NCBI GenBank assembly: GCA_008802785.1
Contig: VUYT01000057.1
Location: forward strand, 1-60,326
Origin: Symmetrospora coprosmae
Lineage: Eukaryota > Basidiomycota > Cystobasidiomycetes > Symmetrosporaceae
Length of the DNA: 60,326 bases
Direction: 5' to 3'
Under the pieces are notes generated by a model that was given only the letters and a program-made list of their open reading frames with translations, was not told the origin of the DNA and did no database searches. Positions 46,690 to 48,817 of the stretch are shown in pieces. The position numbers and the translations under genes are program-made. Each line of letters starts with the position of its first letter. Position 1 is the stretch's first letter.

Positions 46690-48817
46690 ATGTCTGAGAC
46701 TCAGGTCCCCACTGGAATCAAGTCAGTCTTTCCTGCGGTCATGGCTGCCTCCCAGTGCCGCTGACTGACGCTGGACCTCCACCTTGCAGCGGTTTCGGTG
46801 CGTCACAGTAGGAAGGAGGAGGGCAAAGACAGCGCAGATGCGACAGGAGCTGACAGACAGCTGTACTGATCGTGTGCGCGTGCACAGGCCGTATCGGCCG
46901 AATCGTCTTCAGGAATGCCATCCTGAACCCCAAGGTCAAGGTGAGCAGGATAGTGCCAGAGCAGCCTCGAAACCGTTGAGGTGGGGATCGCCCCTGATGA
47001 CGACGTCGAGCTGACGGGGGGCAATGCCATCCCTGCACATCTGATGGACAGGTCGTCGCCATCAACGACCCGTATGTGCTACTGATGCAGCGACTGTCGA
47101 GAGTCCCCCTGCCCCTTTGTGCTGATTCGCCATCCTCGGCCCCCGGTTGGGCTCCCCTCTGACGCTGCGGACTGGGTGAGTTTTGGGCCCTCGCGCTGGG
47201 CGGGCACCCAGTACCGCCCGCGTCGATAAGAGCCATTTCGGACCCGACACGCTATCAAAACACACATACTGACTCTCGCTCGGCTGTTATGACTGCTCAG
47301 ATGATGTCTGAACAGCTTCATTGACCTCGAGTACATGGTGTACATGTTCAAGTACGACACTGTCCACGGTGTCTTCAAGGGCGATGTCCACCACGCCAAC
47401 GGCAAGCTCGTCGTCGACGGCAACGAGATTGAGGTCTTCAACGAGAAGGTGCGTTGGACCCTCTTATGCCGCGCTCACTGCGTCGGAATTGCACACACCT
47501 GACCGACCCTGTTGATCGCACATCGGTTAGGACCCGGCTTCCATCCCCTGGGGCAAGGCCGGCGCTCACTACGTCGTCGAGTCCACCGGTGTCTTCACCA
47601 CCAAGGAGAAGGCCGGTCTCCACCTCAAGGGAGGAGCCAAGAAGGTCGTCATCTCGGCTCCTTCGGCAGATGCCCCAATGTACGTTTGCGGTGTCAACCT
47701 CGACAAGTACGACGCCAAGGACGATGTCGGTGAGTGGAAACCGACACACATAGAGCAGCACGCAGCACGCGCTCACACACAGCGTGCACTCGCCTGCCAG
47801 TCTCGAACGCCTCGTGCACCACCAACTGCCTGGCCCCTCTCGCCAAGGTCATCAACGACAACTTCACCATTGTCGAGGGACTCATGACCACCGTCCACGC
47901 CACGACTGCCACACAAAAGACCGTCGATGGTCCTTCCAACAAGGACTGGCGTGGAGGCCGATCGGCCGCTGCCAACATCATCCCTTCGTCCACCGGTGCC
48001 GCAAAGGCCGTCGGCAAGGTCATCCCCGAGCTCAACGGCAAGCTCACCGGCATGGCTTTCCGTGTCCCTACGTGAGTTGCTTTACATCGTCTGTGCGTGA
48101 GTTTCGATGCGTTGTTCTGACCGGATCTGCTCCCCGCAGCGTCAACGTCTCGGTCGTCGACCTCACGGTCCGCATCGAGAAGGCCGCCTCGTACGACCAG
48201 ATCAAGAAGGTCATCAAGGAGGCAGCTGAGGGGCCTTACAAGGGCATCCTTGCCTACACCGAGTTTGTTGCGCTTCCAAACTGGGTATGGTGGCAAAATT
48301 TTGGCTGACGGACTCCGCCACACACCCACGCAGGGACGAGGTCGTCTCGAGCGACTTCATTGGCAACAGGGCATCATCTACGTTTGATGCAAAGGCCGGC
48401 ATCAGCTTGCAAGTGACGATTCCTCGCCGCATTGGTCGTTTGTCTAAATGCTGATGAAGGTGGGCTTCTCCACCAACAGGAACGACAACTTTGTCAAGCT
48501 TGTCTCCTGGTACGACAACGGTGAGTTGATGAAGTCTGGATACGCTTCACGGACCGCTGTGTTGTTGAGGCACAGTCAAACTGACACCGAGTCATGCGTT
48601 GTCGTCGTTGTCCGCAGAGTTCGGCTACTCTGCCCGAGTCGTCGACCTCCTCGCCTTCATTGGCCAGAAGGACCAGCAGCAGTCCAAGTAAGTTGCTGGC
48701 AGCGTCAGTGAGTTGAGCGGACGCTCAGGCCCGTTGCGGCCGGGTACATGTAGTCCCGAGTCCGCAAGTGCCAACAGGCTGATGCCCTACTTTTACAATC
48801 CTCCCCGCAGGCTCTAA
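46690..48817 (+). CDS. GPD1: Glyceraldehyde-3-phosphate dehydrogenase with alternative peroxisomal ending
   Basis: GAPDH is the NAD-dependent glycolytic enzyme. Twelve exons close in phase: 46690-46721, 46790-46797, 46888-46940, 47052-47071, 47316-47448, 47531-47729, 47801-48071, 48140-48262, 48334-48408, 48480-48520, 48618-48687 and 48811-48817. They give 343 residues with INGFGRIGR, the catalytic Cys in [30 protein letters not shown], and [20 protein letters not shown]. The second exon is only 8 bases. The intron after exon 9 appears to be of GC-AG type (GCAAGT...CAACAG). If the last intron (48688-48810) is spliced, the protein ends QQQSKL, a type 1 peroxisomal signal; if it is kept, TAA at 48689 ends it at QQQSK in the cytosol. 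The same kind of switch is published for GAPDH of Ustilago maydis. Confidence 0.95.
48397..48686 (+). repeat. Left arm of a 290-base inverted repeat (GAPDH 3' exons)
   Basis: This arm covers the end of GAPDH exon 9 through the last coding bases before the SKL switch. The matching arm lies inverted at 51311-51600. I count about 12 differences in 290 positions without gaps. Confidence 0.85.
48688..48810 (+). promoter_or_regulatory. Terminal GAPDH intron that switches the C-terminus (SK stop versus SKL)
   Basis: The exon ends TCC AA, followed by GTAAGT, so unspliced RNA reads AAG TAA (Lys, stop). The intron ends CCCCGCAG, and splicing joins G CTC TAA, giving Lys-Leu-stop and the tripeptide SKL. 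The intron is 123 bases. Confidence 0.85.

Follow-up and report, generated by a model that had tools for sequence, protein, structure and literature searches.

A putative splice switch between cytosolic and peroxisomal GAPDH at the 3' end of a gene in Symmetrospora coprosmae

The GAPDH gene of the basidiomycete Symmetrospora coprosmae has its stop codon inside a splice donor, and this arrangement raises the question of whether a single gene could supply the enzyme to both the cytosol and the peroxisome. The gene was analysed within the whole stretch of DNA available, a window of 60,326 nucleotides (contig VUYT01000057.1), with a GC content of 58.6%. The product of the modelled gene (Table 1) matches both GAPDH domains of Pfam, Gp_dh_N and Gp_dh_C (E 1.2e-71 and 1.9e-38), and residues 6-336 align nearly full-length with solved GAPDHs among the PDB sequence matches. 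Judged from these matches, it is a bona fide GAPDH, and the complete gene lies within the window. The gene is rich in introns. Nine of its ten internal introns are GT-AG and the remaining one is GC-AG (48409-48479, donor ctt/GCAAGT); this intron is required for the frame ...GISLNDNF. Directly upstream on the same strand is a gene for importin beta-1 with seven introns (42276-45549, the end being approximate). Its product consists of 881 amino acids, with a best PDB match at E 2.5e-245.

Two endings can be read from the GAPDH gene. If the transcript is left unspliced at this point, TCC AAG TAA encodes Ser-Lys-stop and the protein terminates in ...QQQSK. The terminal intron spans this stop codon and carries proper splice signals; its removal produces TCC AA/G CTC TAA, or Ser-Lys-Leu-stop, and a protein that terminates in ...QQQSKL. 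The two forms differ by one residue, the C-terminal leucine. The SKL form ends in a canonical PTS1, and the SK form is without a PTS1. The splice pair 48687/48811 and its SKL ending were proposed in the initial annotation, and both are confirmed by the exact coordinates and the sequence, with the frame verified by the whole-gene model. The intron is a multiple of three nucleotides in length and its only in-frame stop is the TAA in the donor.

Table 1. Coordinates of the GAPDH gene and of the features at its 3' end.
Feature	Position	Strand	Remarks
GAPDH gene, 12 exons	46690..48817	+	hand-built model, frame open throughout; spliced protein 343 aa
GAPDH exons 1-6	46690-46721, 46790-46797, 46888-46940, 47052-47071, 47316-47448, 47531-47729	+	
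GAPDH exons 7-12	47801-48071, 48140-48262, 48334-48408, 48480-48520, 48618-48687, 48811-48817	+	
Last main coding exon	48618..48687	+	ends CAG CAG CAG TCC AA, i.e. ...QQQS and the first two bases of Lys
Terminal intron, 123 nt	48688..48810	+	donor caa/GTAAGT, acceptor CCCCGCAG; excision would create SKL
TAA stop of the SK-ending form	48689..48691	+	within the donor GTAAGT
Second donor, tca/GTGAGT	48708..48713	+	paired with acceptor 48810, defines an intron of 103 nt that lies entirely in the 3' UTR; SK ending kept
CTGAT, branch-point-like motif	48780..48784	+	distance to the end of the intron 28 nt as measured by script; position read from the sequence
GCTCTAA	48811..48817	+	last base of Lys, Leu and stop of the SKL form

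The quality of these splice sites was assessed against the window's 17 other modelled introns (10 in GAPDH and 7 in the importin gene), using position weight matrices and leave-one-out scores; 17 introns are a small training set for matrices of this kind. Donor 48688 scores 11.1, and 5 of the 17 control introns score higher. For the acceptor at 48810 the score is 9.0, which 2 of the 17 exceed. A branch motif of the CTNAY or TTNAY type is present in 16/17 controls. The donor, the acceptor and the CTGAT motif of the terminal intron all match the window's other introns.

The 3' end also carries a second donor, which was overlooked in the initial annotation. With a score of 11.4 as against 11.1 it is equal to donor 48688; the two lie 20 nt apart and have a common acceptor. 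Among the GT sites of 48640-48800, it is the only other one to score at least 8. Twin donors are not rare in themselves, as another donor scoring at least 8 occurs within 50 nt in 2 of the 17 control introns. The 48707/48811 exon junction would fall 16 nt past the SK stop, and at so short a distance junction-dependent decay would not be expected. Since the second, equal donor could join the same acceptor with the SK ending kept, the natural reading would be that two donors compete. The length of the terminal intron, 123 nt, compares with a control median of 76 nt (range 68-244). Whether it is taken as 123 or 103 nt, the intron exceeds most controls in length, and this is counted against the switch reading.

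It seems likely, with a probability of roughly 0.8, that splicing at the 3' end of this GAPDH gene works as a two-way switch, by which one gene would provide both a cytosolic and a peroxisomal form. Joining donor 48688 to acceptor 48810 would swap the embedded stop for a leucine and a new stop, yielding the canonical PTS1 SKL; joining donor 48708 to the same acceptor would leave the SK ending. The spliceosome would pick one of the two donors or, occasionally, retain the intron. The majority of GAPDH would presumably end in SK and remain cytosolic. A minority would end in SKL, be bound by Pex5 and be imported into peroxisomes (import in this fungus being assumed), and the peroxisomal enzyme may contribute to the NAD+/NADH balance. 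Both the import and the role in NADH balance would follow by analogy with known systems. A more specific version of this mechanism is put forward tentatively, at slightly below even odds. Recognition of GTAAGT at 48688 by U1 would erase the stop that this same motif contains, the matched donor would compete, and the choice of donor alone would set the ratio of cytosolic to peroxisomal enzyme; growth conditions could tune this choice.

A parallel with the GAPDH of Ustilago maydis was drawn in the initial annotation, and it agrees with the descriptions in PMC3798556 and PMC3798809 of a PTS1 acquired by alternative splicing; PMC10688622 likewise describes the U. maydis case. In the account of PMC3798556, alternative splicing puts a PTS1 on about 10% of the mRNA for GAPDH in U. 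maydis, and mutants without the peroxisomal isoforms have reduced virulence. The alternative-splicing event is described as conserved in Basidiomycota (PMC3597508), and peroxisomal GAPDH is reported in many fungi, via either splicing or read-through, with a suggested function in NAD+/NADH balance (PMC9549241). The original source for the U. maydis and Aspergillus nidulans cases, Freitag, Ast and Bolker 2012 (Nature 485:522), is cited here via citing papers. As described, the U. maydis system is like the one proposed here in involving the same enzyme and the same gene end, where alternative splicing gives or withholds a C-terminal PTS1; this likeness is drawn at the level of published descriptions.

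PGK and GAPDH of A. nidulans are also glycolytic enzymes described as gaining a hidden PTS1 after transcription. There, however, the mechanisms are reported to be reversed, with splicing serving PGK and read-through serving GAPDH (PMC3798809, PMC12316961). Malate dehydrogenase of Yarrowia lipolytica has a splice-controlled PTS1 (Kabran et al. 2012, via PMC3798809). By that account, the choice of splice site alters the C-terminal end alone and adds or removes the PTS1, as would be the case in S. coprosmae. The enzyme is a different one, and the Y. lipolytica introns are said to differ by four nucleotides, whereas in S. coprosmae the donors are 20 nt apart and use one acceptor.

The initial annotation had taken the switch to be one between splicing and retention of the terminal intron. 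The pair of SKL and SK endings stands, and retention is not the sole route to SK, as the equal donor at 48708 also gives this ending. A switch in which only donor 48688 is used, and in which the SK form represents transcripts that keep the intron, would be consistent with a retained reading that leads directly to SK-stop and with the perfect GTAAGT, which is found at donor 48688 only. However, an equal-scoring donor positioned after the stop would make SK with no need for retention, and a switch based on retention is possible but on the whole unlikely. Competition between the two donors is preferred to simple retention as the likelier reading, or one at least as likely, given the sites themselves.

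RNA structure was considered at both donors. A hairpin with an 8-pair stem brackets donor 48688 and is somewhat stable (z -2.0, with 7 of 200 shuffles as good), and the one at donor 48708 does not stand out (z -0.5). At each of three window sizes, both donors have predicted opening costs inside the spread of the 17 controls. A hairpin-gated donor was rejected on these costs.

The ordinary predicted openness of donor 48688, together with a donor, an acceptor and a branch motif that are all good, would also suit an intron that is nearly always spliced. The GAPDH would in that case be mainly or wholly of the SKL form, and the cytosolic enzyme would depend on weak import or on another GAPDH gene. 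This is improbable in view of the equally good competing donor at 48708, and a sole GAPDH that was wholly peroxisomal would starve cytosolic glycolysis. The PTS1 of U. maydis GAPDH, moreover, is described as present on about 10% of the mRNA (PMC3798556). Under the preferred reading of competing donors, the balance between the forms may still lie on either side: the scores of the two donors are too close for the sequence to favour either, and SKL could be the main form.

The SKL ending might instead be a chance product, with splicing confined to donor 48708. This donor would be enough for a tidy 3' UTR intron, and the loose PTS1 options counted in resampled sequence also speak for this reading. 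The donor was kept and the 300 bases of 48701-49000 were redrawn as a first-order Markov chain (n=5000). Under a loose criterion, which accepts any GT-AG splice ending in [SAC][KRH][LM], a PTS1 option appeared in 211 of the 5000 resampled 3' sequences. However, under a strict criterion that also requires an acceptor score and a branch motif of real-intron quality, the option appeared in 6/5000. The stops of ORFs of at least 60 codons on both strands, mostly not genes, gave a loose option in 17 of 615 and a good option in 0 of 615. The GAPDH stop cannot belong to these 615, since it gives a good option itself and would have raised the count of good options above 0. The score thresholds were fixed after the GAPDH scores were known, and the figures from the resampling and from the ORF stops are therefore somewhat favourable. 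With site quality required, and with the same enzyme and the same end as in a described example of such a switch, a chance origin of the SKL ending is very improbable.

Donor 48688 was also combined with 24 AG sites from 48728 to 49140, and a PTS1 resulted from one of them, namely 48810. Acceptor 48777 (CCAACAG) was rejected as a partner for this donor: the resulting ending is not a PTS1, the score of 2.2 is below that of 12 of the 17 controls, and there is no upstream branch motif. Acceptors 48777 and 48810 both consist of CAG followed by GCT, and from donor 48688 either starts Ser-Lys-Leu; only 48810 stops there. Among the unspliced ORFs of at least 60 codons across the window, there were none with a TGAC stop and an extension ending in a PTS1, and none ending directly in a PTS1.

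Stop-codon read-through, as described for other fungal enzymes, can be dismissed as a source of peroxisomal GAPDH with near certainty. Translation of the retained intron past the TAA would indeed continue in frame as far as the same final TAA, but the extension consists of 41 residues ending in RRL, which is not a PTS1, and the stop context is TAA GTT and not of the TGA CTA type, the read-through context being given as TGA followed by CU in PMC10688622.

The relatives considered were 10 viral-contig loci and, for the genomes of bacteria and archaea, the best 80 loci; identity is at most 73%, and none of them was recognised as fungal. A PTS1 ending was found in 0 of the 8 C-termini read among these 90 (L001, L011, L012, L013, L014, L027, L030 and L043), all of them bacterial-annotated or from viral contigs and uninformative on fungi.

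According to the papers cited above, a cryptic PTS1 on GAPDH that is produced by splicing is already known, and the principle of splice-controlled dual targeting is itself published; the S. coprosmae case adds another example. Novelty may lie in the detail of a stop placed within the donor and of paired donors, unless Freitag et al. 2012 already shows it. As an instance of a glycolytic enzyme whose dual targeting would be controlled by splicing, the locus is clean and can be read completely, and a single residue would separate the two forms. With the whole decision left to a pair of matched donors and a single acceptor inside 130 bases, it could serve as a convenient minimal system for how donor competition sets an enzyme's organelle dosage.

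Two further features of the window were recorded, both on the minus strand. The ORF at 1069-2460 has a sub-threshold match to a MULE transposase (26.1 bits, the cut-off being 27.6). The ORF at 20481-21992 is D-arabinono-1,4-lactone oxidase-like, with a match to Pfam ALO at E 9.5e-32.
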